The translations under genes and the position numbers were made by a program. Under the pieces are notes generated by a model. The model searched no databases. It was not told the DNA's origin and saw only the letters and a program-made list of their open reading frames with translations. From Primula veris (Eukaryota; Streptophyta; Magnoliopsida; Ericales; Primulaceae): a stretch of 64,000 bases of DNA. The stretch is from NCBI GenBank assembly GCA_963682055.1, contig OY821745.1:6641501-6705500 (forward strand), written 5' to 3'. This document shows, in pieces, positions 6,859 to 34,200 of this stretch (the stretch's first letter is position 1; each line of letters begins with the position of its first letter).

Positions 6859-6867
6859 GGTTATCAT
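6859..6867 (-). CDS. Antisense spliced gene, short first coding exon
   Basis: Minus strand ATG ATA ACC followed by a perfect plant donor GTAAGT. The equivalent place in copy 2 has ATG ACT and the same GTAAGT. It would join in phase 0 to EILTQ of exon 2. The small size means the call rests on the conserved donor and on the absence of any conserved ATG in exon 2. The intron holds a run of 13 C. Confidence 0.45.
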
Positions 6868-7215
6868 TATGAACAAGCACGGGAGAACAGCAGCAAGTCT
6901 TCCAACAAAACCACGAAACCCTAGATCAAGCGGCCGAACTCTTTTCCTTTTTGGCGGGAAGAATATGCTTTAGAGAGAGAGAGATATTTCTTCAGCAAAT
7001 TTTGTGATAAAAATAAAAAAGGATTACTTGGCACAGTAGAAAGGAGTGGAGTCACAAAAAGAATAAAATAATAACCGTCCTTTCATGTGACAGAGGTTTA
7101 CCTTTTTTCCAACCATACAAAAGTCAACAACCGCTGCTATTTTTAACATATAAACGCTTCAGATTTCGCCACGTCAGCGCGTATCCCACTACCCAAGGCA
7201 GTTCACATCATTACA

Positions 7216-7225
7216 CCTAAATAAA
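7216..7225 (-). promoter_or_regulatory. Possible TATA region of the antisense spliced gene
   Basis: The minus strand reads TTTATTTAGG; copy 2 has TTTATATAGG at the same place. It lies about 350 bp upstream of the proposed start, which is far for a simple promoter, so a long 5' UTR would be needed. Confidence 0.3.
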
Positions 7226-7587
7226 CGGCCAGTGGACCCTACCACGAAAAGCTTCCCACATACGCTACCAATATTATCACACCGAGAATGTCCCCCGATT
7301 AAAGTTCCTCGACTCCCAACCAATTCTTACCCAAAGGGCACACCGAACAAGGTGGACGAAGACCGTTTCTAGCTTGACGGCATGGAGCATCAAGTCTAAC
7401 AACGCTCTCCGGGGGGATAACCGGGCATATTGTTCAGTATATGCTGAGAGACATCAAATGATATCAACATAAAAGAGTGAAGCAAACAAGAAATAAAATA
7501 GGACAGAATCAAGTGCAAGACAAGTTTTATTCATCCACAAAGGGGGAAACACAAACAATACAACAGAAAAAGAAAAATACACCCATC

Positions 7588-7950
7588 CTATTTTTTCGAA
7601 CTATCCCCCATAGCAACATCCCTCTTCGCCAAAAGTTCCTCCAGACGCTCCTTCTCCCTAATCAAACGAGAAATCGCCATCTCAGCCTGTTTCAAGGCGT
7701 AAGACTGAGACTCGCATTTTTGCTCGGCCTTGAAACGAGCAGTGCCCTCCTCGTCCCAATATTGTTTAAACCTCATCACTTCAGTCCGAGCACACATGAG
7801 ATCATGTTTCAGCCATGACATCTCAATTTCTTTTAGTTGAAGAGGAGTCAAATCCTCCTCCCCAAAACCAGGGGGACGAGGTAGCAAAAAAGTAGGCTCC
7901 TCTTCCATAAGGGCTTTCTTTTTGGAGGCAGACCTAGTGATGGGAGCCAT
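7588..7950 (-). CDS. Antisense mini-gene 1: coiled-coil protein (MAPITRS family)
   Basis: 120 aa, unrecognised. Start chosen at MAPITRSASKKK, the ATG shared with copy 2, rather than one five codons upstream. A short basic N-terminus is followed by [14 protein letters not shown] and then a continuous charged helix ([32 protein letters not shown]) typical of a coiled coil. TATAAAT lies about 85 bp upstream and AATAAA (minus) at 7526-7531 downstream, so it looks like a self-contained transcription unit. Copy 2 homologue at 29161-29520. Confidence 0.7.
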   Translation of the reverse strand: MAPITRSASKKKALMEEEPTFLLPRPPGFGEEDLTPLQLKEIEMSWLKHDLMCARTEVMRFKQYWDEEGTARFKAEQKCESQSYALKQAEMAISRLIREKERLEELLAKRDVAMGDSSKK

Positions 7951-8033
7951 CTCACGCAAAAGCAAGTTAGAAGAAGCAAATTATAAAATAAGAGGGAGGA
8001 AGAATTGGTAATGAGATACAGGCAATAGGGAGC

Positions 8034-8040
8034 ATTTATA
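8034..8040 (-). promoter_or_regulatory. TATA box of antisense mini-gene 1
   Basis: Minus strand TATAAAT about 85 bp upstream of the ATG; a matching TATAAAT stands before the copy 2 homologue. Confidence 0.55.
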
Positions 8041-8183
8041 GAGAATCAAAAGGCACAAAGTACGAAGCGTTACAATGGTTCACAAGACAGGCACGAGATA
8101 CGAAAAGATACAACTGATTCATCAAATACAGAAAATAAAACACAAATTGCAAAAGGGGAAATACACAAGAAAACCAGCCCAAT

Positions 8184-8663
8184 CTAAGGATCAATGGGTG
8201 GAAAAACTGAACTGCCAGACCGAGAGAAAACAAAACGAGCAGAACAATTCAACCGAGCTTGGTAGGAATCGTTCATGGCGACCAAATTGTCATTCTCCGA
8301 GGAGAGCCTGTTGTTTTCCGTAGTAAGAACCCTGACGCGCTCCACGAGCCGAGCATTCTTTACCATTATGCTAGCTAGGCCTTGAGGAGAGTTGTCAAAC
8401 TCATCTTGAGAATGGTCCCAAATCTCCTCGGCATCATACCAGGAGTTGGCCAGATGGTTTCTCTGTAACAACAAGTGATCGAGCTGGCGACTCAGTGCCG
8501 AGATCTCGGTCCACTTCACCATCTCTTCGGGATAAGAGCCGAACAAGCTCAAGGCCAAAACGCCATACTCTTTCTCAAGCCTTGCCATCCGACGGCGGAC
8601 CCGAGATACCTCAGTGTCCAAGCCCTTCATCTGAGCATGATATCTCACCACAGGTCCAGACAT
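8184..8663 (-). CDS. Antisense mini-gene 2: coiled-coil protein (MSGPVVRYH family)
   Basis: 159 aa, unrecognised. Begins [19 protein letters not shown] and continues with heptad-like helices (VRRRMARLEKEY, LSRQLDHLLLQRNHL, RVRVLTTENNRLSSENDN). TATAAGT lies about 100 bp upstream. This is the full-length form; in copy 2 an internal deletion leaves only 42 aa (29752-29880). Confidence 0.68.
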   Translation of the reverse strand: MSGPVVRYHAQMKGLDTEVSRVRRRMARLEKEYGVLALSLFGSYPEEMVKWTEISALSRQLDHLLLQRNHLANSWYDAEEIWDHSQDEFDNSPQGLASIMVKNARLVERVRVLTTENNRLSSENDNLVAMNDSYQARLNCSARFVFSRSGSSVFPPIDP

Positions 8664-8760
8664 TCTGGGAAATTGTTATAGTACGGAAGAGAATAAAGGG
8701 CTGAGGGAGAGAAGCAAAAAGAAAAATGAGAGATGATAAACTACCAAAGAAAAGAGAAGT

Positions 8761-8767
8761 ACTTATA
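8761..8767 (-). promoter_or_regulatory. TATA box of antisense mini-gene 2
   Basis: Minus strand TATAAGT; copy 2 has TATAAATA at the same place. Confidence 0.5.
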
Positions 8768-9185
8768 GAACGGAGATAGCATGATATTTTATGACCTTGC
8801 TTGGGAAGTTGCATATTTCCTGACATGCTTGGGAGCATGCACATTTCCTGACCTACTAGGGAGCATGCACCTATGTTTAACAGTGATGGGGACATCTACT
8901 GACATCTGAGACTACAGTGCAGAGAGAAATAAAGACGAGATATTCAAAGATCTAGATTCCAGACAAACAACGAACCACAGGTGCAATATAAAAAGAAGTG
9001 CAAAAATAAAAGGGCAAAAATACTTCTCATTAATAAAGATGGAATATATCATTGTTCATTACATCAAAAGACAGTCTATTACATCGAGGTCTATTACATC
9101 CGAGATAAAGACCTATTACATCTGAGATGTACTATCACAGAAGATCAGGCAAAGAAGGTCGACTATATCAGCAGGCCGAGTGAAC

Positions 9186-9360
9186 AGGAGGCGCCAACAG
9201 AAAAAACATAAGAAACAAAAAAAAAAGGGAAAAAGAAAAGAATGAAAAGTAGGGAGAACAGAGTATAAAAAAAAAATATATAAAAAGAAGAAAAAGAAAG
9301 AGATGGGAAAAGATGGGGAAAAGCAGAGAAAAATAAAAAAGAAGGGGGAAGGTTAGGGGG
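9186..9360 (+). repeat. Purine-rich tract
   Basis: Almost pure A/G on the plus strand. On the minus strand it lies in the 3' region of mini-gene 3 and yields a meaningless F/L-rich ORF. Copy 2 has a longer version (30404-30800). Confidence 0.7.
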
Positions 9361-9646
9361 AAGTCGATCGGTATCGATGAGAGGGCCCGGCAGAGACATC
9401 CCTGTCCCTCAGTGTCGGGTTCCCCCTTAGCATCTCATTCTCTTCGACTAGAGCCTGACGAGCACGTCGGCTATAAGCCAGTTCGGATCTTAGCCAAGTT
9501 AATTCCCGAACCATCTCGGTATGGTGATAACGCATCACCTTCAGTTCCTCCTCGGCATCCCTCAACAGCCTTTGTACATGGCTATAAGAGGCTTCAAAAG
9601 CCTCGACTTGCAAAGCTAATGTTGATGGGGTGAAAGGACCAGATAT
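9353..9646 (-). pseudogene. Antisense mini-gene 3: coiled-coil protein, start codon lost
   Basis: The body [37 protein letters not shown] and the end [13 protein letters not shown] matches copy 2 closely, but the codon equal to copy 2's ATG is ATA here (9644-9646). An upstream in-frame ATG at 9718 is only about 13 bp from the TATA box, too close to be in the mRNA. The unit is therefore probably dead or starts internally. Coiled-coil prediction is by eye. Confidence 0.6.
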
Positions 9647-9730
9647 CTTAGGGAAATTATAAGATGAGGGTCTATATATGGGGGAAAATAATATGATGAG
9701 AATTGTGGATGTAACCATGCTGTGAGCAGG

Positions 9731-9738
9731 TATTTATA
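9731..9738 (-). promoter_or_regulatory. TATA box of antisense mini-gene 3
   Basis: Minus strand TATAAATA, identical in copy 2. Confidence 0.55.
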
Positions 9739-10214
9739 GATCAATTAGATGAGGGCTGGTATTGAGAGTCGCAACCGTTCGCCAATGGGTACTAAGAAGC
9801 GATGGCAATTAAAAGATGTGTCTGTTCAAGAAAGAACGTTTGGATTCCCCAAAGGTTCTAAAAAAGCGTGAGTAATTAAAAGCCACTCTTGTTCACAAAA
9901 CGCTTGGATTCTTACCAATATTTAAAGAGGGCAAGTAATAATGGCATTGAAACACGCGTCATTTCTGGGAAAAAGCATTAGGTTCAAATAAATATCTAAG
10001 ATCTTTTGCACAGAGATCAAGAAAACTATGGTGAATAAGATTTTTACGCACAAGGCCCAAGAAAAGCATTAATGAGGCCACAAGCGTGCGCAGTCAAAAT
10101 AAATTGCATTGGAAAAGTAATTCAGATATAAACAAGAAAAAGAAGTCTTTATTGATTGATTGATATTTCGTTACAGAAGAAGCACAGAAAGGAAATACAA
10201 TAAAAACAATAAAA

Positions 10215-10553
10215 TCATTTCATAGAAGGGCCCGCTTCGTCATTCGGCTTCCCCTTCGACCGAGCATACACTTCCTTAAGGGCCAGTTTGTAAGCCCTCT
10301 TGGAAGAAAGTTGCCTGTCTCTGGAGGCTTCGAGCTCTTTGATCCGAGCACGAGCGCGAATACTGTCGAGCAAAGACCTCCGAAGCTCCTTCTCCATGGC
10401 GTCCAATCGCTCGTCTAGTTCGACGGCCCGACGAGCTTCCACCGATAGCCGGGCAACCCTCTTCTCGAGATAACGCACCTTCTGAACTTCCTCTTCCAGA
10501 CGAGCAACATATTCAGGAAGGTTGTCACCATAGTTTTCAAGAGGAGAAGCCAT
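10215..10553 (-). CDS. Antisense mini-gene 4: coiled-coil protein (MASP...PEY family)
   Basis: 112 aa, the same length as in copy 2 (31696-32034). Starts [20 protein letters not shown]; the middle is a charged helix with [20 protein letters not shown] and [13 protein letters not shown]; the end is [18 protein letters not shown] then NDEAGPSMK. The shared C-terminal KRAYKL...KE...ARSK motif and PEY/NYV N-terminus make it a paralogue of mini-gene 5. TATAAAAGG lies about 50 bp upstream and AATAAA (minus) at 10148-10153 downstream. Function unknown. Confidence 0.72.
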   Translation of the reverse strand: MASPLENYGDNLPEYVARLEEEVQKVRYLEKRVARLSVEARRAVELDERLDAMEKELRRSLLDSIRARARIKELEASRDRQLSSKRAYKLALKEVYARSKGKPNDEAGPSMK

Positions 10554-10601
10554 TTGTTCGTTAATAAAGAATGAATTGCATAAAGAATACAGGGACAGTC
10601 C

Positions 10602-10610
10602 CCTTTTATA
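10602..10610 (-). promoter_or_regulatory. TATA box of antisense mini-gene 4
   Basis: Minus strand TATAAAAGG, identical in copy 2. One of the strongest TATA matches in the series. Confidence 0.6.
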
Positions 10611-10856
10611 AGAAGAAACAAGGAGTAGATCAAAGGTCATCTCGAAGAAATACAACCTCTTGAACTTCCCAAGAGCATTTACGGCGAATTAACTACAGTT
10701 CCAAACCCAATTAAAGTCATCCAAAAAGATATCAAGAAGATGAACAGACAAGAACAAGGATAGGGTAATATTTTATTAATTTCAAAAACTTCGATTACAA
10801 CTGAGGAGAAGACTCCCCATTCAAAAGAAATTACAACAGAAATCGCAAAAGACTAA

Positions 10857-11177
10857 TTATTTCGATGAAGAGCCTTCTTCATCGTCATCCGAACTCGGTT
10901 TAGACCGAGCATGCAACTCCTTGAAGACAAGCTTATAGGCCCTTTTTGCTGCCTTCTGCTTAGCCAGATTAGCCTCGAGCTTCTTTATATGCTCGTAAGC
11001 CCAATCCCGATCGGCCATCGTCACATGATGATCAGAATCCATGTCAGACAACCTTTTCTTGTAGTCTGAAACCTTGGCCACGAGTTTCTTATTCGCGGTA
11101 CAAGATTTCTTGATCTCTATTTCTAAATAAGAAACATAATTAAAGGAGCTCTCACCAGTAGAACCAGAGGAAGCCAT
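10857..11177 (-). CDS. Antisense mini-gene 5: coiled-coil protein, paralogue of mini-gene 4
   Basis: 106 aa from MASSGSTGESSFNYVSYLE, the ATG shared with copy 2. Contains KKRLSDMDSDHHVTMADRDW, then AKRAYKLVFKELHARSKP and an acidic/serine end. Intact here; copy 2 has a premature TAA. TATAAAGGG lies about 53 bp upstream and AATAAA (minus) at 10772-10777 downstream. It lies next to the 3' LTR. Confidence 0.7.
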   Translation of the reverse strand: MASSGSTGESSFNYVSYLEIEIKKSCTANKKLVAKVSDYKKRLSDMDSDHHVTMADRDWAYEHIKKLEANLAKQKAAKRAYKLVFKELHARSKPSSDDDEEGSSSK

Positions 11178-11229
11178 TACGTCACGAAGCAAAGTAGAAA
11201 TAAAATGCCTAATTATGGAGGGGGCACTC

Positions 11230-11238
11230 CCCTTTATA
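11230..11238 (-). promoter_or_regulatory. TATA box of antisense mini-gene 5
   Basis: Minus strand TATAAAGGG about 53 bp upstream of the ATG. Confidence 0.55.
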
Positions 11239-11421
11239 GGAGTTTTCCTCGAAGGAAGATATTAGGGTATGAAACATTAAATAGGCCCCCCAAGGAACCG
11301 TCATAAATCTATTACGTTTCTCGATCAAGCATTGGGAACGACGAGACCGAAGTAATATTCTCGACAGACCGAGCATGACTCCCTCGACATGGAAACCACG
11401 CCGAAGAAGTCAGGGAGCACT

Positions 11422-11993
11422 TGATAGAACATGAAAATTAGACCCGAATATTCTATTCGGGTGATAGTCAACCCACTTTATAAATGGGTATCCAACGCTT
11501 AACTGGGTCATCACCTGCCTTTTATGGGATAACAAGGCGTTACTACCAAAAGCCCAAGCCCACTCAACTGGGGACCCATGTCTGAAAAACCCCATGAGAT
11601 GGAGACATTTGTCAACATCCTAGAAGGCATAGTTGCCTATAAATAGCCAACTACCCCTCCTAGAAAAGGATCAGAAAATCTATCCAAAAAATATAGAGAG
11701 AAGTTGAGAAAAGAGAGAAACTAATCAACGCACACCACTTCAAGAAATAAACCGAGAAAAGACAAAGCCGAGCACCGAATAAAAGGGGAGAAAGATCAAG
11801 ACGAGAGATTAAATAGTCATATCGAGCACAATTGTAAAACCGAAATACTAATCCGAGCAAGTGTAATAGTCCGAACAAGGATAATAATCCGAGCAATAAT
11901 AAAGATCAGGAAGTGTCCATTATTCACAGTTGATTTACTATTATATTATTGTTGAAAAGTCTAACGCGACCGACCAAAGTTATGGCTTTATCA
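11422..11993 (+). repeat. 3' LTR of Tat copy 1
   Basis: Starts TGATAGAACATGAAAATTAG and ends GTTATGGCTTTATCA. It aligns end to end with the LTRs at 16392 and 32912 but with many differences. CTATAAATAG near 11637-11646 is the likely TATA box. Confidence 0.9.
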
Positions 11994-16214: not shown

Positions 16215-19200
16215 CTACAATTTTTTTAGCAATTCATGGTAATAGAAATGTCACTTGCACTCCAAAAACCTTACACAAAAACTTAACAAATAATTTTCAT
16301 CTTTAACAAAAATGTACAACACTCGGGGTATCTCCATCCATATAAGAAATTACTAATGTTTTTATAACCACTCTTGTTAAATCAACATGAATGATAGAAC
16401 ATAAAAATTGGATCCGAATATATCTATTCGGGTACGAATCGACCCACCCATCATAGAGGGGTATCCAATACTTGAATGGGTTATCCCATGCTTTTCTTTG
16501 AGAATAAGAGTGGATATCACTAAAAGCCCAAGCCCACTTAATTAGGGACCCACGTCTGAAAAATCCCATGAGATGGAGACATATGTCAACATCCTAGGAG
16601 GCATAATTGCCTATAAATAGCCAAGTATCCTCCCTAAAAGAAGGACCAGAAAATATACCTCAAAAATATAGAGAGAAGAAGAGAAAAGATAAAAACTTGT
16701 CAGAACGTATCACATCAATAGCCTAACCGAGCAAGGCAGAGAAACGAGCACCGAAGAGAAGAGAAAGATCACGTTCAGGATCAAACAGCGAATTCGAGCA
16801 TAAATATCGTAATAGAATTGTAGTCCGAACAATGGCAATTGCCGAATAAGAATAAAGATCAAGAAGTGTTCAACGTTTATCGTCAATCCATTATAATATC
16901 ATTGTTGAAAAGCCTAACGCCACCGACCAAAGTTATGGCTTTGTCAAATGGCGCCGTCTGTGGGAATCATCTAGTTCCCAACTAGCTTCGAAATCGAACA
17001 CCAACGTTCCACCAGACGAGCAACAAATGGCAAATACCAACGAAGAAACTCGCCCAGAGGAAGTAGGCACATCAACAAACCAGGAAATCCCTGTCCACAA
17101 AGACGTGTTAGCGCACCTCCTCAACATCAGAGACCGCTACGAAGCGCTTCAGGTTGGATCTCGACGTACCGTCTCTAACGTCCAAACAGAACAACAAACT
17201 GACCATCCCCCTCATGTCGACGGTCTTGTCGACGAAAAGCCTACGGACACGGATGCGGAACGAGCGCCATCCATGACTAGGCATGTGGGGACACTCTTGC
17301 CAGACAAACGCCATCCCAATAATGCAGGGCCAAGTTCAAAGGCCCCTCAGCCAGCAGCCTCAGTTAACTCCAGTCCCCAACGGGTTCGTTTTCAAACGAA
17401 CGAAGCCAATGACCCCATACTAGAACAGGTTGTCTCATATCCACCCCTCCCACCGCGGATAATTACGCTGTACACTGTGGAACTACAAACCCCTGTTCGA
17501 CAAGATAGGACTACGGCCGCACTAGCACGGGCCGTAGAAAAACGTAATGCCCTGATACAAGCCCAGCTAGAGGCATGCATGTCGGCCATGGCAGCGGCTG
17601 GCATCACGATACCGCTCATCCAACCGACCAATGTGCAAACCGACTCTCGACGTGAAGCGGAAGATTCTGCTTACCGAGCAGCGATGGCAGCGACGGGCCG
17701 ACCTCATGATACAAGGATACCAAGACAAGGAGAACCCATCCCGAGGATAACCCCGACGGTTTACGGTCACCAAGGCGCGTCTCCTCTACCCGACTTCGAC
17801 AAAAATCCGAACGACGGGAGGAACGGCGACCACAGGGTCATAGTTGGTTACTATCCCCAACACCCCTATTGGGGATACGCCCCTCAATACCTGGCACCGG
17901 ATGAACCGTTCCAATAGGCTTGGGACGTATACCAAGAGACTCCATGTACCGATCAGATAACTCGGTACCGCAATCCTGCGGGGTTTGTCATCCCCGAATT
18001 CAGACTATATGATGGAAGGAGCTGTCCCATTGATCACCTCCGACATTACAAAACAAGGATGGAGTTGTGGAGTGACGACAGTGCATTGATGTGCAAATTT
18101 TTTAAGAACAGCTTGGGTCAGGAGGCGTCGTCGTGGTATCATAATCTACCACGGGGATCCATACGAAGCTGGGCTGAGCTCCTCCGTGCATATTCCACCC
18201 GATATGCCGCTCATAGGAAGAAGAAGGTTAACATTGAAACCCTTCTAAAAATGGCTATGTTGCCCAATGAGAGGCTCCACGACTACTGCATACCCTTCAT
18301 CGATGTAGCGAACCAAATCCCGCAGTATGCCAATAACATAGCCATCCAGAACTTCATCAACTCTATCCCCAGCGACTATTGGGCGAGAAGGAAGTTCATC
18401 GGCAAGAATTTCCCGACCACTGATGCCCTTCTAGCCTATTGCACCCACCTTACTGATAAGAATGAAGAGATGCGAGTCCTCAACCGGGCTCCACCAAGAA
18501 GAGAGATGGTCCGGGAGGCGTAGGTGGACCGCAAGAGAGCCAAGAACAATCATGGGGAACCAGTCCCCCAATCCAAACGGGACAAGGGTCCCGAGGTTCA
18601 GCGAAGGGAATACAGACCCGTAGAGCCCGAGCCCAAGCCTCTCCGAATCGCCTATCCAATGCCACCCAAACCACCTCAGCAAGGTCGTGGGCCAGAAAGG
18701 GAACGCCAGAGGCGTTATGAGCCTGTCGAGTTGAGGTACACTTTCAACCTGTCAGCCGAAGATATCCTAAAGGATATATGCAGAGAAAGTTGGTATTCCC
18801 GACCCGAACCAATCCATTCCCCCCCTGATTCCAGAGATACCAAGCTCTTCTGCGCCTATCATGAGGATCACGGCCATCTCACCGAGCATTGCCGAAACCT
18901 GCGGTGGAAGATGAGCGTGTGGGGAGACGCGGGGTTGCTCAACAAGTTCATCAAAGGCGCTAGGGACAAAGGCAAGCAACTAGTCGTCGAGGGAATGGAC
19001 AATCGACAAGGCAAAACGATCAACGTTGTCCACTTGTCAAGGCCCAAGAGCACCGGGGGGGATTGATCCCAACAAAGGCAGTTGGCCCACTTTGGGCAAG
19101 TAGCTAAAGCTTCGCATGCATCGACCTCAAAGCGGCAATGCATACCGCAGAGACACCCACCCATTTCTTTCTTAGATCTTGATGAAGAAGGGGTGATATA

Positions 19201-22200
19201 GCCTCACGGGGATGCCATTAACCTACGTGTCCAGATCGGCATAGACACCGTCAGCAGAGTACTTGTCGACCAAGGAGCCTCTTGTGATATCATGTACAAA
19301 GAGCTCTTCGACAAAATGGAGCTCAAATTGCAAGATCTACAGCCCACTGACGTCACACTGATCGGGTTCATCTCTGAGACGACCAAGCGGTTGGGAAAGA
19401 TCGTCCTAAATGTTACCACGGGATCCGTATCTGTCCCCGTGGAATTCTTGGTGGTCAATGATAATTCCGGCCACAATGCGATCTTGGGCCGACCGTGGCT
19501 TCATGCTATGCGGGCGATACCTTCCACGTACCACCAGAAGGTGAAATACCCTAATGCCAAGGGGAAGATCGAGACAGCCCGAGTATGTCAGGAAGATTCA
19601 AGACGCTGTGAAGACATCACCGCTACGTTGAAGAGACAACTTGTAGTTGTCGAACAACCCACAAGCGCATGGAAGCTGATCGACCAAATAGCACGAGCTG
19701 AGAGGGTTGTTGAAGAACAAGTCGGAGAAACACTCCGGAAGGTGTATATCCCGGATACGGATGAGGAGCATTACTTCCTCATCGGAGATAGCCTTCCTAA
19801 AGAGGAATCCAAGGAGATAGAAGCGTTCCTCTTCAGCAACATCGATAAGTTCGCTTGGAGCCCCAAAGACATGCCCGGTCTAGATCCGAAAACAGCATGC
19901 TACCACCTCAGCGTAAATGCCGAATACAAGCCCATAGCTCAAAGGAGCCGGAAGGTGTCCGTCCAGCACAGAGCGGCTATAATTGCTGAAGTCCGAAAGT
20001 TGTTGGCAGCAGGAGCAATACGGGAAGTGTTCTACCCGAAGTGGCTATCCAATCCGGTCGTCGTCCCAAAGAAGAACGGGAAGGAAAGAGTCTGTATAGA
20101 CTTTACCAATCTGAATAAAGCCTGCCCCAGGGACCCATTCCCCCTACCAAGGATTGATCAACTGGTGGACGCCACGGAAGGAGCGGAAAGGATGACCTTC
20201 CTCGACGCATACTCGGGATATCATCAAATCCCCCTTGCCCCCGAAGATCAAGAAAAGACCTCGTTCATATCGCCTTTGGGAAACTATTGCTATACGGTTA
20301 TGCCGTTCGGCCTACGGAATGCGGGAGCGACATACCAAAGGATGATAACGAAGGTATGCTAAAATCATATAGGGAAGACAATGGAAGTGTGCATAGACGA
20401 CATGGTCGTCAAGAGCGAAAGGGCCACTTCCCACCTCCAGGACATTAAAGACGTCTTCCAAACGCTGGGCGGGCACAAACTAAAGCTTAATGCTAGCAAA
20501 TGTGCATTCGGCATCAGCAAATGGAAGTTTTTAGGGCATATGGTCAGCCAAAGAGGAATAGAGGCGAACCCCGACCAGATAGCGGCTCTGCAAAACCTAG
20601 CAGCACCAAAGAATAAGAAGCATGTGCAAGAGCTCACGGGGATGATGGCCGCACTGAGCAGGTTCATCAGTCGATCCGCAGATAAGGGGCGACCATTTTT
20701 TGAGACCCTCAAGAAGGATAAAAAGTTTGTATGGGACCCGGCATGTGAGGCATCATTCAACAACCTCAAAGAGTATCTAAGGACGCTGCCCCTGCTAGTG
20801 AGGCCGAATAAAAGAGATATTCTGGCCTGCTACCTAGCAGTTTCTACTACAGCCGTGAGCGCAGTCATCCTAAGAGAAGAAGGACGCGAGCAATTTCCTA
20901 TCTACTTCGTCAGCAAGACTTTGGTCGAGGCTGAAACACGCTACCTACCGTTGGAAAAGTTGTGTTTGGCGTTGGTCGTTGCTACCCGGAAACTACCACA
21001 CTACTTCATAGCTCACAAAGTCCAAGTCTACACGAAGTTCCACGTCAAGGAGTCCCTTCGACGTACGGATATCAGCGGTCGGGTGGCAGCATGGGGGGTC
21101 GAGCTATCCCAATTTCATATCGAATTCGCACCGCGACACGCCATAAAGGGACAGGTGTTAGCTGACTTCGTCGCCGAGTTCACCGAAGGTTATGACGAGC
21201 CCCTGACCATTTCACCACAGTCGCACTGGGAAATACATGTCGACGGATCGTCCACCAAGGACGGATCGGGAGCAGGCATCGTCCTCAAGTCCAGAGAAGG
21301 GGCGATCATCGAGAAAAGCATCAAATTGGGCTTCCGAGCTACTAACAACGAGGCGGAATACGAAGCCATGATCAATGGCATGCTCATCGCCCGATCTCTC
21401 GGATGCACCCACTTGATTGCTAGCTCCGACTCCATGCTAATCGTCAACCAGGCTACTGGTGAATACCAAGCCAAGGACGATCGGATGATCCTCTACCAAG
21501 AGAAAGTCCAGAGCATAATGGCCACGTTCGAACATTGCGAATTAATCAGAATTAATCGCATCGAGAACGCCCACGCCGACGCATTGGCAACCCTAGCTTC
21601 GACATTAGCGTTAGCCAACACTCGATCAATCACAGTGGAACTCCTGGAAACCCCGAGCATAAATTGAAGGATAAACCGAATCACGTCAATACAATACGAA
21701 CTAGGATGGATGGACGACATGATGCACTATCTGCGAAACGGGACGCTCCCGACAAACAAGATAAAAGCGTTGAAAATCACAAGAAAGGCCCCTCGGTTCT
21801 GGCTATCCGAAGACAACAAGCTGTACCAATCTAGTTACCGCGGACCCCACCTTCTGTGCGTCCGGCCCGAGTTGTAACAGCCAGTCTTGGAGGAAATCCA
21901 CGAAGGATCATGCGGAGCACACATCAAGGGCAGGTCCCTCGCTAACAAGGCTATCACACAAGGTTATTGGTGGCCCTATATCAAGAGAGACGCCGACATC
22001 TACCTACAAAGATGCGACAAGTGTCAAAGATTCGCCAAGATACCTCGGCTTCCATCGTCCATGATGACCCCAGTATCAGCTCCGTGGCCTTTTGCACAAT
22101 GGGCAATTGGTTTGGTCGGTAAACTTCCAAGAGCACCAGGCAGCGTGGAATATTTAATCGTCGCAACAGATTACTTCACCAAATGGGTCGAAGCTAAACC

Positions 22201-25200
22201 CCTCCGAGAAATCAAAGCCAGCAACGTTAAACAATTCATCTGGGAATACATCATCACCAGGTTCGGTATACCGTACGCTATAGTCGCCGACAACGGAACC
22301 CAGTTCAAAGATGCCAACCTGCAGCTATGGTATGAAGAACTAGGCATCCGGAAGTTTTATTCAACGCCTACATATCCACAGGGCAACGGGCAAGCTGAGG
22401 TGTCAAACCGAACCATACTAGATGGCATCAAGACAACTCTGGAACAAGCAAAGGGAAGATGGCCCGAGCGACTACTCAACGTCTTATGGTCGTGCCGAAC
22501 CACGCCAAAGACGGGCACCAAGGAAACCCCGTTCAGCCTAGCATACGGCGTCGAGGCCATCATACCGACAGAAATCGGGCTACCCACACTCCGAACAACT
22601 TTAGTCGAACAGGGAAACAATGAGCAAAGAATGAGAGAGGAACTCGACATGATAGACGAGAAACGAGAAATAGCATCCCTTACCTTAGCAAAATACCAAC
22701 AAAGCGTTAAACAAGCTTATGACAAGAGAGTAAAAGGGACCAAGGAATTCATGGTAGGAGAACTGGTGCTGCGCAAAGTAACGGTCTATACCCGCAATGA
22801 AATACATGGCAAACTGAGCCCCACCTGGGAAGGACCATACGAGATCGTCAAAAGAACAAGCCCGGCGACCTACAAGATCAAAAGCGTTCTGTTCGAAAAT
22901 AGCCGAGGAGAAAAGAATTCATGGAACGTGACGAATCTCAAAAAGTACTACGTATGAACTGGCCTCCATTACAGGTCACAACACACCTCTACATTGTCAT
23001 GACATTATTTTTGAATTCATAAGATATTTTGCTATTTACCAGGGTTGAGGAATACTAAAAGTCCTCCAACGTAACCGGGGGCATAAGAAATTCCTAAACG
23101 GCATGTATGACTTATTGCCTAGGAATACTAAAAGTCCTCCAACGTAACCGGGGGCATAAGAAATTCCTAACGGCATGTATGACTTATTGCCTAGGAATAC
23201 TAAAAGTCCTCCAACGTAACCGGGGGCATAAGAAATTCCTAAACGGCATGTATGACTTATTGCCTAGGAATACTACAAGTCCTCCAACGTAACCGGGGGC
23301 ATAAGAAATTCCTAAACAGCATGTATGACTTATTGCCTAGGAATACTAAAAGTCCTCCAACGTAACCGGGGGCATAAGAAATTCCTAAACGGCATGTATG
23401 ACTTATTGCCTAGGAATACTAAAAGTCCTCCAACGTAACCGGGGGTATAAGAAATTCGTAAACGGCATGTATGACTTATTGCCTAGGAATACTACAAGTC
23501 CTCCAACGTAACCGGGGCCATAAGAAATTCCTAAACGGCATGTATGACTTATTGCCTAGGAATACTACAAGTCCTCCAACGTAACCGGGGGCATAAGAAA
23601 TTCCTAAACGGCATGTATGACTTATTGCCTAGGAATGCTAAAAGTCCTCCAACGTAACCGGGGGCATAAGAAATTCCTAAACAGCATGTATGACTTATTG
23701 CCTAGGAATACTACAAGTCCTCCAACGTAACCGGGGGCATAAAAAATTCCTAAACGGCATGTATGACTTATTGCCTAGGAATACTAAAAGCCCTCCAACG
23801 TAACCGGGGGCATAAGAAATTCCTAAATGGCATGTATGACTTATTGCCTAGGAATACTAAAAGTCCTCCAACGTAACCGGAGGCATATGAAATAATAGCT
23901 CAGTCACACATATGCAGGTACCAACTCCATCAAGGAAAAAGGGGCAGACAAAGGGAAATAAAACAAAGTCCTAGCCCACATTACGGAGGCAATAAAACAT
24001 CGAACGAAGAAATCAGCAAAGGAAAATCAACCCAATCAATAAAATATCAGTACGACAATGAGAAGATCTGAACATAAGAAGAAAGAAACAAAACAAATAG
24101 TCCTCGCCCACATTACGGAGGCGATAAAACATCGAACGAAGAAATTAGCAAAGGAAAATCAACCCAATCAATGAAATATCAGTACGACAATGAGAAGATC
24201 CGAACATAAGAAGAAAGAAATAAAACAAATAGTCCTCGCCCACATTACGGAGGCAACAAGGTATGACCAACCATAACGAAATTGATTTAAGAACTACTGC
24301 TACATGAGGAGCACGACGGCAATTGACAGAGCTCTACCTCTTCGTCGTCCGTCGCCGTATCCCCATCGGTCTCGTCACCATCAAAACGCTCCTCAGAAAT
24401 AAGGGCATCAAAGTTGGTCGTATGAGCACCGATGCATGTCAGCGTCTTAAGCCGAGCGGAGAACTCGGTTACTTTAGCAACCTCGTGAGCATCCCAGGCC
24501 GCTTTACGACGAGCATCGTCGAAGGGAAGCTCACGCGCTTCGATCATAGCCGCCGAAGCATCGTACCTGGATCGGGACAGACGAAAATACTTTACCAACA
24601 TATTGGCTTGATTTACCAACGATTTTAGTTTACCGAGGTATTTTTCCTTTACACACCAATACCGATCTAAACGACGCTCCTGAACCTGTACAACATGCTC
24701 GGCACGACAAACATATTCACGAAAAAAGGACGCCTGGGTTTTCAACTTGGCCCTAAATCGGACACACTGATCGAGCAACTTGACGTTTTTGCCCAATAAA
24801 ACGATGTAAGGCCAATTGGCATGCCCTTCGCTAGCCGCACCAGATGAGACCTCGTCCCGGGCAGCACCAGTAGGTCCTAGCCCCGGACTAACTAGGCATG
24901 GAGAATCAGCCTGGTGCGACATAGCAGCACGTGCCTATAAAAAAAAATGGGGAAGAAAGGAAGAGATGAATATTCATCCGCAAATAAAGAAAAGACAGGG
25001 AAGTAGAAGAACAAAGATTTTTATACAGGCTACAAGTAAAATGACAAAACAGGCTACTAAATCATTAATCCGATAACCCATTAACAGACGCTGAGGTCTC
25101 TACGGCATCAGGAAAATGAATATCTCGCAACGAGACAATTTGCGTCCCCAAACGTTCCTGCACGACCGCATCCACTCGGTTCAAAGCATCCGTAGTCTCA

Positions 25201-28200
25201 GTTACCCCGGCCATAGCATCTACCATGCGCTCTGCCTGGGCAACACCACGCATCCCGTTTACATGCTCGAGCACCTCTAATGCGCGACTTCGGGCCCAAT
25301 ACGATTTGGTGAAGGATAGCAACAGGTCCGCGTCCTCGAAAACGGCCACTAGAACCAAGTTCAAGCTCATCACCCGGCCTCGGGCTTCATCACGAGAATG
25401 CCGAAGCGCACCAAGAAGCTCCTTAGCCTTTCCCTTGTTTGCCGTATAATGGGTTGTCTTCTTGCTAAACTTCTCTCCCAGGTCACGTAATCGGATCGAC
25501 AAGTTTGAAATATGAATATTCAGACCCTCGATTTCATGACGAGCAGAATTCAGTTCAGAAGTTAGGGACGCCGTAGATTTTTCAAAACCATCTGTAACAT
25601 CGCCTACACTACGACTAGGCGAGGTCCAGACCACCATGGCAAGGGGGTTAGCCGGTACCTGACAAGATTTTGTTTTTACATCCTTCAAAAGATTACGACC
25701 CACAAACAAGGAAATTAACCAGGGAAGCCAAACAGAAAGAAAACGGAGCACCTATATTATCACTTCCCAAAAGAATATATGTCTAGATACAAAAGAATCC
25801 CTCAATTAGGGTACCAAAAGACTTTACCCTAATCTACATTTAAAATACTGCAAGACAATGGTCAAGGCTCCATCTGAGGGGATGCAGGTGGGGGAGTAAC
25901 AGTAGCAACAGGCCGAGGTGTGGATGGGGCCGACATAGAATGAGGACGGAGCACTGTCGAAATCGTCTGCCCTGGCAGACGGGGAAGCTCCTCATCCCGA
26001 AGATTCTCCCAGTCTAGGGGTTTTGGCAGTGCACCATGAGGATAGGGATACACCAATTCCGTCCATGCCCGATCCGACAAAGGAACCTTCACGAAATTGA
26101 GAGCACGAACATGAGCGCAAAAGACGGAAAAGTTGGCCATCATTGCAAACTTGGTCCGCTCCTCCGCTTGTGCCTTTTTCAGAGCAGCGACCTCGGATTT
26201 TTCTGCCTCCGCGTCCTCTGCCATGAGCAGATTATCGGCCTCTAATAGGTCGTATTTCTCGACCATAAGCTCTTTGTCGGTTTCCAGCTTCTTAACCTCA
26301 TCGGTCAGGCGTAGGTTATCCCCTACCATCCGAATCTTCTCCTCTGCCATGGCTTTATTATCCGCCATCAGTTTCTCTTTCTCAGCCACGAGTGCTGATA
26401 GCTGATCCCTTATCTTCCGAGCGTTCTCCTCGACTATGGCCTTATTCTCGGCAATCAGCTTCTCTTTCTCAGCTTCTAGCGCTGTCAGCTGATCCTTCAG
26501 CACCACGGTGCCCACGAAAGCTTGTAATTAAAAACTTTAGATACCGGCCAACTAAGGGCATAGCACACTATATAACAAAAGACGCACGAAACATACCCGA
26601 AGCACGTCATTGTTGGCCTGCTCAATGACCGACACTATAGGCCGAGCAGCCATCTCCTATGCATCCTTGAAAAGAAGGGGCTCAAGAGCAGTGTACCCCA
26701 TCCTTAAAGCTCGGGGCTGCTCCAGCAATTTCCCCTTACACCGATCAATATAACGAGTCATCGCGACCCCGTCCACCAACCTCTTTTAAGGTCCCTCGGG
26801 AGCCTCATCCTCACCACCCATCGCAACATCCACGGCAGTCTCTTTGCCGGCTTCCACCTCCACCTCCTCCCTCACCTCCTTCTCCGAAGGACCAGTCTCA
26901 GGGGCCCTATGCTCGCTCACATCCTCAGTACGGGTGGGCGAGATAACAGGCAGGTCCATCATGTCCTCGGTACGGATAGGCGAGATGACAGACAGGGTCA
27001 TCGTATCCTCGCCCATATTCACCAAGAGATTGATATGTCCGAATACGTTATCGAACGACCCCTGAAACACAATAATACCCATAGACCGGGCAGGAGTAAG
27101 GGTAACCAATGAAGAAGTCAATAGCTGAAACAGGATGACAAATAAAGCGAAGAACAAGGGAATTAAAAGACAACAATTCACCAAAACAAAAAATATATAT
27201 ACACGTACGTCGACATGAGTGGAAGCCCCCTCGGCGGTATCACCCTGGGAAGAAGCAACCAGCGCCGCACCAGTGCCCACATCGGCACCCTCCTTACTCG
27301 CCGATGTCTCTGCCCCTCTCACCCTCTTTGGGGTCCCCACAACGGGGTCCGATGCTCAGCGCTTAGAACAAACAGGCTTTTTCCCTCCCCGAGAGGCACT
27401 TCTAGCCTTGACAATTTTGAGCAAGTCCTCCTCAGTCTCTGTGGGAATCTCGGGCTCGGGATTACCCTTCGTCACTGGCCCCGCAAGATAACCTAGCAGC
27501 ATGGGGGCAGTACGGCTTGCCGGATCCTTCGTCGGACCGGTCCCCCACCAATTCCAGAGGGCCAAGAGAGCTTTAGCATTGGGAGCACCGAGATCTGGAA
27601 TATCGGGAGCCGTTGTCGCAGGTCCAGGAATCTGGTGTCCCGCACAACCCCACTCTCCGGAAGCAATCACAACACCAAGGTTATGCTCCTTGTTGGTATC
27701 CGGCAGACCGATGACAAGCCGAGAGAAGGAGCGCAAAGTCTTCAAATACGAGCTGCGGAGCTCGAAACTCAAACTGTAGACCCCGAATACGTCTTTCAGT
27801 TCGATAGGTGTCCCGGACAACTCCGACAACCTTCGAATACCGGTCAGCGTGCGATAACCATTCAGGGCTAGCTGGGCCGGAGCGATCTGGACGGCCTCAA
27901 AGAACGAAGCCACCCAATCAGTAAAAGGAAGTCTAAGACCCCCAGTAAAGAACGCCGAAGAGCGAACGGCTACCTTGCCGGCCGGAACAAATCCCATGAC
28001 CTCATCATCTGAGACAGGCAGCCGAATGTGTATGTTGGCAGGTATCCCGGCGAGCTTCTTAAAGTCCTCTTCCACAAATGGGCCAACTTGGGCTAGGCAT
28101 TGGGTCAGAATTTCCTATTCAAACATCATCCAAAACTCCATCAATATATTAACCAAAAACACATGACACAACGAGAGCCCCCCCCCCCCCCCCCCCCCCC

Positions 28201-31200
28201 CCAAATTACCCGAAACCCTAAGTTTTACCACCAACCCAACAAACGGAGATCCTTTATATAAAGAAAAACCATCAACCACCACCCTAGATAGACATATACC
28301 GGCAAACAAGACCCTATATATTACTGCCACATACATGCCCACAACAAACAATCGAATACGGAACCTACGCACAAAGGGGTACACAAAACCCTATAAAATC
28401 ATAAAACACTTACAGTCATAATTACGAGCGAGCAGGCGAGAACAGCAGTAAATCTATCAACAACCAGATGCAACCCTGGATAGAGAGGCAGAAAAATGTT
28501 TGGCGGGAAGAACAAACCCTAGAGAGAGAAAATAAGAGATATTTTGTTTCAACAAATTATGAGATAAGAACAAGAGGGATTAATTAGCACAGTTACAAGA
28601 AGTGAAGCCACATAAAGAATAAAATAATAACTGTCCTTTCGTGTGACAGAGGTTTACCTTTTTTCCACCCACAGAAAAAATCCCCAACTGCTGCTATTTT
28701 CAACAAATCAACGCTCCAGATCTGGCCACATCAGATAATGTATCCCACTAACCAATGCAGTTCACATCATTACACCTATATAAACGGCCAGTGGACCCTA
28801 CCATGAAAAGCTTCTAGCATACGCTATCAATATTACCAGACCGAGGATGTCCTCCGATTAAGTTCCTCGACGCCAAACCTTGTCTTACCCGAATCGCACA
28901 CCGACCAAGGTGGACAGAGACCGTTCCTAGCTCGACGGCATTTAAGCATCAAGTCTAACAACGCTCTCCGGGGGGATAACCACGGTGTACCTTGCTCGAT
29001 GTCCGATACTGAGAGACATCGAATGATATCAACATAAAGGCAAAGCAAATAAAATAGACAGGATCGAGTTGCAAAACGCAAGTTTTATTCATCCACAAAG
29101 GGGGATACAAACAAACAATACAACATGAAAAGAGAAGTTTATAAGAAAATAACACCCATCCTACTTCTTCGAACTACCCCCCATATCGGCATCCTTCTTC
29201 GTCAAGAGCTCCTCCAGACGCTCTTTTTCCCTAATCAAATGAGAAATGCCAATCTCAACTTGTTTTAAAGCATGAGATTGAGACTTGCACTTCTGCTCGG
29301 CTTCAAAACGAGCAGCGCTCTCCTCCTGCCAGTACTGTTTGAACCGCCTCATTTCGGTCTGAGCACACTTAAGATCGTGTTTCAGCCACGACATCTCGAT
29401 TTTTTTTAGCTGAAGTGGAGTCAATTCCTCTTCCCCAAAACCAGGGGGACGGGGTAGCAAGAAGGTAGGCTCTTCAACAAGGGTCTTCTTTTTGGAGGTA
29501 GATCTGGTGATGGGAGCCATCTCAGATAAATGCTAATTATAAGGAAGAATGGATACTGAAGTTAAAAACAATAGGGAGCATTTATAAGGAATCAAAGGGC
29601 ACGAAGTACAAAAAAGCGCCAAGAACGAGGCGTTGCAAAAGGTTCAATATACATAGAGGCACGGAATACAACAGGGTACAACTTACCAAAAACAGAAAAG
29701 AAAATACAAATTACAAAACGGGAAACACATCAGAAAACTAGCCCAATCTAACTAAGAATCAATGGTCAAAGCCAAAACACCATACTCCTTCTCAAGACTG
29801 GCCATTCTATGACGGACCCAAGATACCTTAGCATCTAAGTCCTTCATCTGAGCATGATATCTCACCACGGGCTCAGACATTATAGAGAGTTGTTATGATA
29901 CAGAAGGAGAAGAGGGATAAAGGAGAAGCCAACACAAGTTTATGATAAGGATAATCTCCCAAGGAAAGGTTGAGTATTTATAGAGCAAAGATAGTATGTT
30001 GTTGTCTGACAAATACTTGGGAACATGCATCTTTGACCAAACCTGCCATGCCTCAGAAGTCACACGGCTACAGTACAGCAAGAAATAAAGATACAAGATA
30101 TCCAAAGGTCCACATTCCAGATGAACGACAAACCACAAGTGCAACATAAAAAGAAGTGCAAGATAAAGGGGCAAATATAAATGGGCAAATATAAATGGGC
30201 AAATATAATTTTCATTAATAAAGATGGGATACATCGCTTTCATTACATCAGAGGACAACATCAAAATGAAGAACTTTTACATCAGAGGACATCAAAAAGA
30301 AAATCTATTACATCCGAGAAAAAGATCTATTACATCCGAGAAAAGCTAGTACAGAAGATCATACAAAGAAGATCGACTATATCAGCAGGCCAAGTGAGCA
30401 GGAGGCGTGAAGGAAAGTAAAAAGGAAAAATAAAGAAGAAAAAGATGAAGAGGAACATAAAGAAGAAGTGAAAAATACGAAGAAAAGAAACATAAAAAAA
30501 AAAAAGGGAAAAGAAGAAGAGTGCAAGAAAACAAAGAAGAAAAAGGTGGTGAGACCGAGGATGAAGAAAGAGAAAGGAAAAAAGTAGAGAGAACAGAATA
30601 TAAAAGTAAAAGAAAAATGACAAAAACCCTAGAAGTAACAAAAAACCCGAGGGACTCAGGGTTGATTGTTACATCGTAGTGGTAAAAAAAAAGATGAAGA
30701 AAAAGAAAGGGGAAGCGCAGAAGAAAAAGAAGAAGAAATGAGAGAAGATAAAGAAATGAAGGAAACTGAATAAAATAAAAAGAAGAAAAAAAAAGGGCGA
30801 CGCTAGGGGGAAGTCGATCGGTATCGATGAGAGGGCCCGGCAGAGACATTCCTGTCTCGAAGTGTCGGGTTCCCCCTCAACACCTCATTCTCTTCGACTA
30901 GAGACCGACGAGCACGTCGGCAATAATCTAGCTCGGACCTTAGCCAAGTTAATTCCCGAACCATCTTGGTATGGTGATAACGCATCACCTTTAACTCCTC
31001 CTCAGCATCCTTTAACAGCTTTAGTGCATGGCCATAGGAGGCTTCGAAAGCTTCCACTTGCAAAACCAGTGCAGATTTGGTGAAAGAACCAGCCATTTTA
31101 AGAGAGTTATAGGATAAAATTCTATATATGGTAAGGAGAGGTAAAGAAGAGATTATGAATAAACCCATATCTTAAGAAGGTATTTATAAAAAAAAATTAA

Positions 31201-34200
31201 AGATGGTTTAATGTGGGGAATTGCAACCGTTCGTCAAAAGGCTCTGGAAAACGTGGGTGATTCAAAGACGCGCCTGTTGAGAAGAAATTAAAAGTGGGGA
31301 ATTGCAGCCGTTCGTTATTAAAAGATGTGTCTATTAAGAAGAAACGCTTGGATTCATGCCAATATTTAAAGAGGGTAAATTCCAAAAAGCTTCTACACGT
31401 GTCTCGTTAGGAAAATGTAGCAGTGTTAAGAGATAAAGGATAAGATTTGTGCACAAGGCTCAAGAAATCCCATTAGTTCCTAGATACAAAGATTCAGAAG
31501 ATTCAGTGGATAAGGTCAAGCACAAGACCCAAGAAAAATCATTAATGAAGCCACAAGCATGCGCAGTCAGAATTAATTGCATTGGGAAAATAATTAAGAT
31601 AAAATGCAAGAAAAAGAAGTCTTTTTTAATTGATTGAAACTTCATTACAGAGGAGGCAGTCAACATAAAGGAAATACAATAAAGAGAAAAAAGAATCATT
31701 TCGTAGAAGGGCCGGCTTCATCATTCGGCCTCCTCTTCGCCCGAGCATACACTTCCTTAAGAGCTAGTTTGTAAGCCCTCTTGGAAGCTATGTGCCTGTC
31801 TCTTGAGGCTTCGAGCTCTTTGATCCGAGCACGCGCCCAAATGTTGTCGATCAGAGACCTCTGATATTCCCTTTCTATGGCATCCAATCGCTCATCCATT
31901 TCAACGGCCCGACGAGCCTCCACGGACAACAAGGATACCCTTCTCTCTAGAGTACGCACTTTCCTAGCCTCGTCCTCGAGATGAGCAACATACTCGGGAA
32001 GATTGTCACCACTATTTTCATAAGGAGAAGCCATTTGATTTGTTAATAAGGGGAATTATACAAAAAGATAGGTACAGCCCCCCTTTTATAAGAAGAAACA
32101 ATGGAGAAGATCAAGGGTCACCTCGAAGGAAGACTAACCCTATTGAACTTCCCAAAGACATTATGGCTAATTAACCACAGTTCCAAGTCCAATTAAAGTC
32201 GTCCAAAGAGGTATCAAGAAGATAAACGTACAAGAATGAGAATAAGGAAATATTTTATTTATTCCAAATAGTTCGATTACAACTGGGGAATGATGCCCCG
32301 TACAAAAGAAATTACAAAAGAAATTACAAAAACTAATTATTCTGAGGAAGAGGTTGCTTCAACGCCATTCGACCCTGGTTTGGACCGATTATGCAACTCC
32401 TTGAAGGCAAGCTTATAGGCTCTTTTTGCCGCCCTTTACTTAGCAAGAGAAGCCTCAAGCCTCTTTATATGCTCAAAGGCCCAATCCCAATCAGCCATCG
32501 TCACATGATGAGCCGCGTCCATATCTGACAATTTCTTCGCCATAACTGCCAACTTCCTTTTCACAGCATGAGCTTTCTTGACCTCATTTTCTAAATGAGC
32601 AATGTATTCGGGAGAGTTGTCACCAGTAGCACCATTGGGAGATGCCATGACGTTCTTAGTAATGACAAACAATGGAACATTTATGAGGGAACAATCCCAT
32701 TTTATAGGTAAATAGGGGAATACCAAAGGTCGCATCGAAGTTGAGTAGCAGGTTTGCAAATCCAAGACATTAAATGGGTCCCATTGAGCAGTCTTAAATA
32801 GGGACATTTTTCGATGAAGTATTGGGAACAGCAAGACAGAATTAGCTTCCTCGACATACCGAGCATGACTCCCTCGACGTGGAGACCACACCGAGGAAGT
32901 CAGGAAGCACTTGATAGAACATAAAAATTGGACCCGAATATATCTATTCGGATACGAATCGACCCACCCATCATAGAGGGGTATCCAATGCTTGAATGGG
33001 TTATCCCATGCTTTTCTTTGAGAATAAGAGTGGATATCACTAAAAGCCCAAGCCCACTTAATTAGGGACCCATGTCTGAAAAATCCCATGAGATGGAGAC
33101 ATATGTCAACATCCTAGGAGGCATAATTGCCTATAAATAGCCAAGTATCCCCCTAAAAGAAGGACCAGAAAATATACCTCAAAAATATAGAGAGAAAAAG
33201 AGAAAAGATAAAAACTTGTCAGAACGTATCACATCAATAGCCTAACCGAGCAAGGCAGAGAAACGAGCACCGAAGAGAAGAGAAAGATCACGTTCAGGAT
33301 CAAACAGCGAATTCGAGCATAAATATCGTAATAGAATTGTAGTCCGAACAATGGCAATTGCCGAATAAGAATAAAGATCAAGAAGTGTTCAACGTTTATC
33401 GTCAATCCATTATAATATCATTGTTGAAAAGCCTAACGCCACCGACCAAAGTTATGGCTTTGTCAGTGAAAGTGAGTGCCTATTTTGATTATGTTTCCTA
33501 TCAAGACAAAGTAAAAAAAAATAAAAAAAATCATCAAGTAATCTATTACCTGGATGTCAAATGGACCCAAAAATGGTAAAAGATCGGTGACATTGAGAGC
33601 CCCAACCATCTCCACGAGTTCTCTTATAACGTTCTTCAAGTCAAATCTTTCATCTGAGCACTTACCGAACACCATTTTACAACTCATGTCCTCCATCACA
33701 CGTGCTACCTCATCACTCACATTGACCACTGTCCCGGGTGCCGCCTTTATCCGCTCCACCAACCTTCCCACCTCCTCTCTTCTCATTTCTTTGAATTCTT
33801 CAATTTTCAAAGGGCTCATAAGCTCCAATGTACACAACTTCCTCACGCTCCGCCAGTATGGCCCGTAATCGGAAAAAACCACGCCTTAAAAGAAGAAGAA
33901 AAAATCACTATTGATGATTTTATTGACTTTGGTGAAAAGCGAAAATTACACACTCATATGCTAGTTGTAGTCAGGACCGGGAAGTTGCCCCGGTCAAAAG
34001 AGTATTTTTAGTTGCCTTACGAGTTTTTTGAAATAACAATAAACGAAATGTATAGTTATTTTTTGTTTAGAATTAAACAAATTCACAGATCTGAAATTTT
34101 AGCCAAACAAACAAGCTCGAGTATTCACTAAACAAGTTCTAATTTTCTCTCCTTACCAACAATATTAAAAAATTGCCTGGTAAGGTTGCTCCTCAAAAGA

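Follow-up and report, generated by a model that had tools for sequence, protein, structure and literature searches.

A candidate array of five short antisense accessory genes in a Tat/Retand-type retrotransposon of Primula veris

Two element copies with five short antisense open reading frames

We analyzed a stretch of 64,000 nucleotides from Primula veris (contig OY821745.1, positions 6,641,501 to 6,705,500; hereafter the window), which holds two copies of one Ty3/gypsy retrotransposon family and, within each, a row of five short open reading frames (ORFs) running antisense to gag-pol. Copy B, which lies wholly within the window, is a Tat/Retand-type element on the plus strand (16392..33465; 17,074 bp) with long terminal repeats (LTRs; 16392-16946 and 32912-33465) that are 98.9% identical, start with TG, and end with CA; by eye, four of the five bases of its 5-bp target repeat match. 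Pfam searches placed gag, protease, reverse transcriptase (RT), RNase H, RVT_3, and integrase domains in it in that order, and its gag-pol, in a single frame, has seven stops ahead of the natural end, so that B is not an intact element. Copy A (1..11993, plus strand; 3' LTR at 11422-11993) has its 5' part cut off by the window start, and its pol aligns with that of B at 85%. The interval between pol and the 3' LTR is 9,954 bp long in B and slightly shorter in A (9,736 bp); on its minus strand, a TRP28-type region (see below) adjoins the pol side past a set of tandem repeats, and the five short ORFs adjoin the 3' LTR. The ORF array has a G+C content of 40% versus 51% in gag-pol, a difference suggesting that its origin may be distinct.

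We named the ORFs orf5 to orf1 in their reading direction on the minus strand. In copy A, they comprise orf5 (10857..11177; 106 amino acids [aa]), orf4 (10215..10553; 112 aa, where an ATG listed at 10640 sits upstream of the TATA box), orf3 (9353..9646; start codon lost), orf2 (8184..8663; 159 aa), and orf1 (7588..7950; 120 aa). In copy B, orf4 (31696..32034; 112 aa, a paralogue of orf5), orf3 (30803..31096; 97 aa counted from its likely start), and orf1 (29161..29520; 119 aa) are intact; orf5 (32436..32648) is shortened to 70 codons by an early stop, with homology running on to about 32340, and orf2 survives as a remnant of its first 40 codons (29761..29880), about 355 bp having been deleted. 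Intact ORFs measure 291 to 480 bp including the stop, and neighbors in the window copies are at most about 0.9 kb apart. An initial annotation of this DNA had listed five ORFs in the same order in both copies; the order is borne out in A and B, with the losses just described. It had also given each ORF an ATG shared by the two copies, which fails for orf3: the ATG common to A and B (9718 and 31168) sits only about 20 bp past the TATA box. The likely start of orf3 is instead the ATG at 31096 in B, from which the frame is intact in 35 of 40 copies (see below) and which A has lost.

Further copies in the genome

A search of the plant's own genome (436.5 Mb) with the array as the query turned up 1486 first-look candidates, and 40 of these were scored. 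The resulting 83 matches were grouped to 38 places besides B, all of which were retrieved, making a set of 40 copies with A and B. The 38 are those that match copy B best at the DNA level, and the search addressed array-bearing family members only. Homology to all five ORFs was found in 37 of the 40 copies (35 of 38 when A and B are left aside), in the order 5-4-3-2-1 in every one of the 37; the other three are L009, L023, and L024, and in L009 and L023 the orf1 match lies just beyond the retrieved stretch. If an intact ORF is defined by an ATG, a stop, and a length that differs from the reference by at most 8 codons, then orf5 is intact in 35, orf4 in 26, orf3 in 35, orf2 in 23, and orf1 in 26 copies (n = 40, A and B included).

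Because these copies had been picked by whole-array similarity, we took six more from the list of orf1 protein matches, spread down its ranking and absent from the earlier set. Five of the six carry all five ORFs in order, albeit with three broken in L051 and a partial orf2 in L054; the sixth, L053, is internally deleted, with orf4 cut, orf3 absent, and no convincing orf2 match. In L053, orf1 is intact and TATA boxes still stand ahead of orf5, orf4, and orf1. The orf1 search had produced 1399 first-look candidates; among the best 150, which were scored, 121 were free of internal stops, a ranking by score that leans towards intact matches. A comparable search with orf4 gave 2684 first-look candidates, the best 150 of which were likewise scored. 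The best 150 matches are all close in both searches (identity of at least 88% for orf1 and at least 80% for orf4). The array belongs to a large family. On four contigs, seven matches to orf1 have an identical E-value (3.4e-67) and the same identity (92%), with open frames of 143 aa in six and 151 aa in the remaining one, a sign that one subfamily may have expanded in a recent burst.

Conserved TATA boxes, starts, and AATAAA signals

Each ORF is preceded on the minus strand by a TATA box. In copy B, these lie at 32701..32706 (58 bp from the ATG of orf5), 32085..32090 (56 bp, orf4), 31183..31188 (92 bp, orf3), 29977..29982 (102 bp, orf2), and 29581..29586 (66 bp, orf1); the corresponding distances are 57 to 104 bp in A, counted for orf3 to the lost start position. 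The box reported earlier ahead of every ORF is hence present throughout. When the copies were searched for TATAA followed by A or G between 40 and 130 bp upstream, it was recovered in 39 of 40 copies for orf5, 38 of 40 for orf4, 39 of 40 for orf3, 37 of 39 for orf2, and 37 of 37 for orf1, at 43 to 129 bp, with medians of 60, 55, 92, 102, and 82 bp from orf5 to orf1.

The placement of the boxes differs from that of chance matches. On the non-coding minus strand of the A array, TATAAA occurs four times, each time 57 to 92 bp ahead of an ORF start, and all four are kept in B; the orf2 box reads TATAAG in A (104 bp) and TATAAA in B (102 bp). TATAAA is the sole 6-mer kept between A and B in the region 25 to 125 bp upstream of four of the five ORFs, the runners-up reaching two, and when five non-coding anchors were drawn at random 100,000 times, one draw matched all five sites. 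It is kept between the two copies in five of six minus-strand cases, including one within orf5, versus one of six on the plus strand. Across the copies, the 7-mers covering the boxes changed 0.14 to 0.57 times per site versus 1.48 at non-coding sites, and among the 193 7-mers in the 200 bp upstream they rank 2, 2, 5, 14, and 10 in slowness from orf5 to orf1. In the reference copy, four ORFs start with ATGGCT and the remaining one with ATGTCT, and the ATG is rarely changed. An AATAAA follows within 150 bp of the stop in 34 of 35 intact copies of orf5, 17 of 26 of orf4, and 25 of 26 of orf1; the earlier remark that several of the ORFs are followed by this signal therefore stands for these three and not for orf3 and orf2. 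From these features, we infer a promoter role for the TATA boxes and separate transcription of the five genes.

Purifying selection on the five ORFs

Between A and B, the ratio of nonsynonymous to synonymous divergence (dN/dS) is 0.13 for orf1, 0.26 for orf2 (43 codons only), 0.29 for orf3, 0.26 for orf4, and 0.44 for orf5. As a null, the same mutations were redistributed randomly in 500 shuffles per ORF; the shuffle means were 0.57 to 1.09, and the observed ratio was reached by 0, 1, 0, 0, and 32 shuffles for orf1 to orf5. The RNase H-integrase part of pol gives a ratio of 0.057 in the same comparison, with a proportion of synonymous differences (pS) of 0.49 versus 0.27 to 0.47 for the short ORFs.

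Parsimony counts were then made on trees of 35 copies (34 to 35 in the tree of each ORF), after the removal of five that had large gaps or inserts. Internal branches gave ratios of 0.28, 0.22, 0.21, 0.18, and 0.23 for orf1 to orf5, and terminal branches gave 0.43, 0.61, 0.36, 0.54, and 0.35. New stops arose 4 times on internal branches (three in orf1, one in orf2, and none in orf3, orf4, or orf5) and 39 times on terminal ones (14 in orf1, 12 in orf2, 1 in orf3, 11 in orf4, and 1 in orf5). A single tree for the whole array yielded 0.18 to 0.22 on internal and 0.29 to 0.63 on terminal branches. Pairs drawn from different clades have ratios of 0.12 to 0.47, with a synonymous divergence (dS) across subfamilies of up to about 0.8. 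Low internal values combined with higher terminal ratios and stop counts form the pattern expected of proteins that are needed while the element moves and that decay after insertion. Judged by these substitution patterns, all five proteins have been under purifying selection during the spread of the family. Two outcomes that the initial annotation had named as evidence against itself, dN/dS near 1 across many copies and unconserved TATA boxes, were thus not seen: the ratios fall below the shuffled nulls between A and B (weakly so for orf5) and well below them on the inner branches, and the boxes are kept in 37 to 39 of the 37 to 40 copies per gene and are among the slower-evolving stretches upstream.

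Divergence is uneven along the array. For one and the same pair of clades, dS amounts to 0.07 for orf2, 0.13 for orf3, and 0.32 to 0.39 for orf1, orf4, and orf5, and in a comparison of seven copies, the nearest to B are L020 and L016 by orf4 and L022 by orf5; these gene-by-gene differences look like recombination between subfamilies.

The encoded proteins

Full-length comparisons of orf4 and orf5 proteins (E of about 1e-14 to 1e-17) establish these two as paralogues. Profile comparisons of orf4/5 with orf3, orf1, and orf2, and of orf1 with orf3, recovered no relation, and we accordingly rejected common descent of all five, orf4 and orf5 being the only clear paralogues. AlphaFold2 models of orf4 (four sequences; residues 12-100) and orf1 (two sequences; residues 35-115) each consist of one long helix with low-confidence ends. 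A heptad periodicity as strong as the observed one was reached by 1 and 17 of 500 shuffles for orf4, 9 and 6 for orf3, and 24 for orf2. The proposal that all five proteins are coiled-coil-like therefore holds in part: a long helix is predicted in the two modeled proteins and heptads are evident in orf4, orf3, and orf2, whereas they are unclear in orf1 and orf5. As for a basic leucine zipper (bZIP) protein, a basic region joined to a leucine zipper was not recovered: orf2 covers positions 30-57 of the 64 in bZIP_1 at 19.1 bits versus a cut-off of 27.6, and orf1, orf3, orf4, and orf5 have no bZIP match in Pfam. When viral contigs were scanned with alignments of orf4/5 and of orf1, 600 and 101 pattern matches, respectively, came up, none of which was confirmed.

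The adjoining TRP28-type region and other features

Between the tandem repeats and the array lies an antisense TRP28-type gene region (24287..28640, minus strand; upper end approximate). Four open segments in it are kept between A and B (about 27356-28100, 25862-26540, 25065-25661, and 24287-24936), with A-B dN/dS of 0.12 to 0.26 and, by eye, splice-like borders at several of them; all four were matched in each of the three further copies looked at. The region matches PF04195 below the cut-off (E = 0.006; 17.2 versus 26.2 bits), in the same place and on the same strand as in Retand, and in copy A no TATAAA was found upstream of it. It may represent a single spliced gene or be made up of two to three genes. 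Accordingly, the span 24287..32706, which had been annotated as one cassette, is better divided, with the part from 24287 to about 28640 forming this separate, spliced-looking region. Two of its parts, 25065-25637 and 24287-24922, have an ATG and a stop of their own and an A-B dN/dS of about 0.2. Another antisense ORF, at 26786-27082, has an A-B ratio of 0.98, unlike its neighbors, a value that does not demonstrate selection in this frame.

Several features bear on the placement of the element. In B, RVT_3 lies between RT_RNaseH and integrase, that is, a second RNase H-type domain is present; the covered part of the literature describes such a domain as common to Retand and Ogre (PMC6317226), and the two lineages are therefore not told apart by it. 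Tandem repeats, found in the region between pol and the 3' LTR in about half of the published Retand elements according to the covered part of a recent survey (PMC11963269), are present there in both A and B. They differ by copy, with a 73-bp spacing in B (23048-23893) and a 38/48-bp spacing in A (1712-2803). Elsewhere in the window, the minus strand holds long open frames at 53344-56589 that, by eye, resemble a Ty1/copia polyprotein and a 275-codon frame at 39490-40317 that, judged by eye from the heme-binding motif, resembles part of a cytochrome P450.

Interpretation of the array

We interpret the array as five short, single-exon accessory protein genes that lie antisense between the 3' LTR and the TRP28-type region of a Tat/Retand-type retrotransposon, each with the appearance of an RNA polymerase II unit of its own, and put the probability of this reading at roughly 0.78. 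Every unit would consist of a TATA box, a short leader, an ATG, an ORF of about 100 to 160 codons, and a stop, with an AATAAA in three of the five; the leader would measure about 25 to 70 bases if transcription begins about 30 bases past the box. The original proposal of a cassette of small genes with their own promoters, as opposed to passenger sequence, is thereby supported by dN/dS and TATA conservation, with the promoter role being predicted.

Several observations weigh against this reading. Separate transcription is predicted from sequence features, and no AATAAA was found within 150 bp past the stop in any of the 35 intact copies of orf3 or the 23 of orf2. The A-B signal of orf5 is weak (32 of 500 shuffles), and for ratios as crude as these, neutrality does not correspond to a value of 1, as the shuffles (0.57 to 1.09) indicate. 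One opposite-strand frame also has low A-B ratios (0.18, 0.23, 0.43, 0.26, and 0.63 for orf1 to orf5); since each intact copy of each ORF has at least two stops in this frame, we read its low ratios as a by-product of the signal on the minus strand. The heptad signal is unclear for orf1 (148 and 108 of 500 shuffles) and orf5 (66 and 47 of 500). None of the five proteins matched a Pfam family at the cut-off, a sequence search of solved structures with the orf1 and orf4/5 alignments gave no match, and neither did a fold search of a viral library with the orf4 model. Finally, the 38 further copies were chosen as the best DNA matches to B rather than sampled at random, and all five ORFs are intact in only 8 of the 40 copies, from which it appears that a single gene may be dispensable in a given copy or supplied in trans.

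We rejected chance ORFs on the basis of dN/dS relative to the shuffles, the internal-branch ratios, and the stop counts; coding on the plus strand was likewise rejected, there being no ATG-started plus-strand ORF of at least 60 aa over orf1, orf3, and orf4 in B, and the low-ratio frame holding stops. Other explanations accept the ORFs and differ on how they are expressed or used. One long antisense transcript from near the 3' LTR, polycistronic or alternatively spliced, could carry all five and leave the inner TATA boxes unused; their common direction, their close spacing, the lack of an AATAAA at orf2 and orf3, and the spliced appearance of the adjoining TRP28-type region without a TATAAA upstream in A would suit it. 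Nevertheless, a conserved TATA box, an ATG, and a stop for each ORF, the rarity of changes in the ATG, and the AATAAA at orf5, orf4, and orf1 make it rather improbable; polycistronic mRNAs, moreover, are rare in plants. The product might instead be the antisense RNA itself, acting through double-stranded RNA or interference with gag-pol, a type of retrotransposon control discussed in the covered part of a review (PMC7264820). We regard this as very improbable in view of the codon-position pattern, the low ratios, and the few new internal stops in all five ORFs: selection at the codon level disfavors a purely RNA role, even though RNA effects could occur alongside the proteins. That the ORFs are fragments of host genes carried as passengers would agree with the lower G+C of the array relative to gag-pol, yet it is scarcely credible given purifying selection across subfamilies with dS of up to about 0.8 and the many copies that carry the array.

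What the proteins might do is a further matter. By analogy with Ty1, whose copy number is limited by Gag-derived restriction proteins, they might hold down the copy number of their own element; separate promoters would permit dosage-dependent control, and coiled-coil proteins could conceivably disturb Gag assembly. We consider this unlikely; similarity to Gag was looked for through Pfam only. If the array indeed consists of five accessory genes, our preferred, though tentative, proposal is that their products are helical coiled-coil partners that would help the element in trans, through control of transcription or by shielding it from host silencing, in parallel with the action of the antisense protein HBZ on transcription of human T-cell leukemia virus type 1 (HTLV-1). 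They would assemble with themselves, each other, Gag, or host factors, and, having their own promoters, could be made while the LTR promoter is silent. More speculatively still, the family might have at least six antisense genes, including the five TATA-driven ones, which would act as independent units, be reassorted by recombination between subfamilies, and encode coiled-coil products that join in a mixed complex and keep the element active against host silencing.

Comparison with known systems

In the literature covered, the antisense genes described in plant retrotransposons are long ORFs, one or a few in number, with no established use. The closest precedent there is gene23 of the maize element Grande, which lies antisense in the interval from pol to the 3' LTR, has its own promoter, and encodes a nuclear protein (as reviewed in the covered part of PMC7264820). 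Compared by description only, it shares with our array the placement between pol and the 3' LTR and a promoter of its own, shown there and predicted here, but it is one gene, whereas five short genes and a TRP28-type region are found here. The 2025 survey of Retand elements by Vicient (PMC11963269), in the parts covered, likewise places antisense ORFs, a TRP28 domain, and tandem repeats in this interval; antisense ORFs and tandem repeats recur in our element, in which the match to the domain lies below the Pfam cut-off. The region spans 2,933 to 6,566 bp in its 63 clusters, an observed range rather than a strict criterion, and at 9,954 bp (B) and 9,736 bp (A) our copies fall outside it. The survey counted ORFs of at least 600 bp, and shorter ones only if they had TRP28, so that ORFs of 291 to 480 bp as found here would have gone uncounted. 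Single antisense genes with their own promoter and TRP28-type regions are therefore already known; an array of separate small antisense genes such as the present five was not found described in the literature searched, the coverage of which did not extend to the older primary papers (Steinbauerova 2011, Kejnovsky 2006, and Gomez-Orte 2013). Surveys that apply length cut-offs would overlook such genes.

Outside plants, HBZ of HTLV-1 is an antisense-encoded zipper protein whose expression, in both a spliced and an unspliced form, is driven from the 3' LTR (PMC10186651, in the part covered). It resembles the genes of the array in its antisense coding and in a promoter other than the 5' LTR and differs from them in being one gene driven from the 3' LTR; we claim no sequence relation and offer it as a parallel of possible working only. 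The giant Gypsy elements of planarians, described in the covered part of PMC9289625 as having several extra ORFs, are similar in their collection of ORFs besides gag-pol, the comparison extending to that collection and not to strand or promoters. Small, separately expressed proteins are easier to test singly than a 17-kb element, and the role of antisense genes would become directly testable. If each gene of the array has its own promoter and is selected, plant retrotransposons can carry sets of accessory genes like those of retroviruses.

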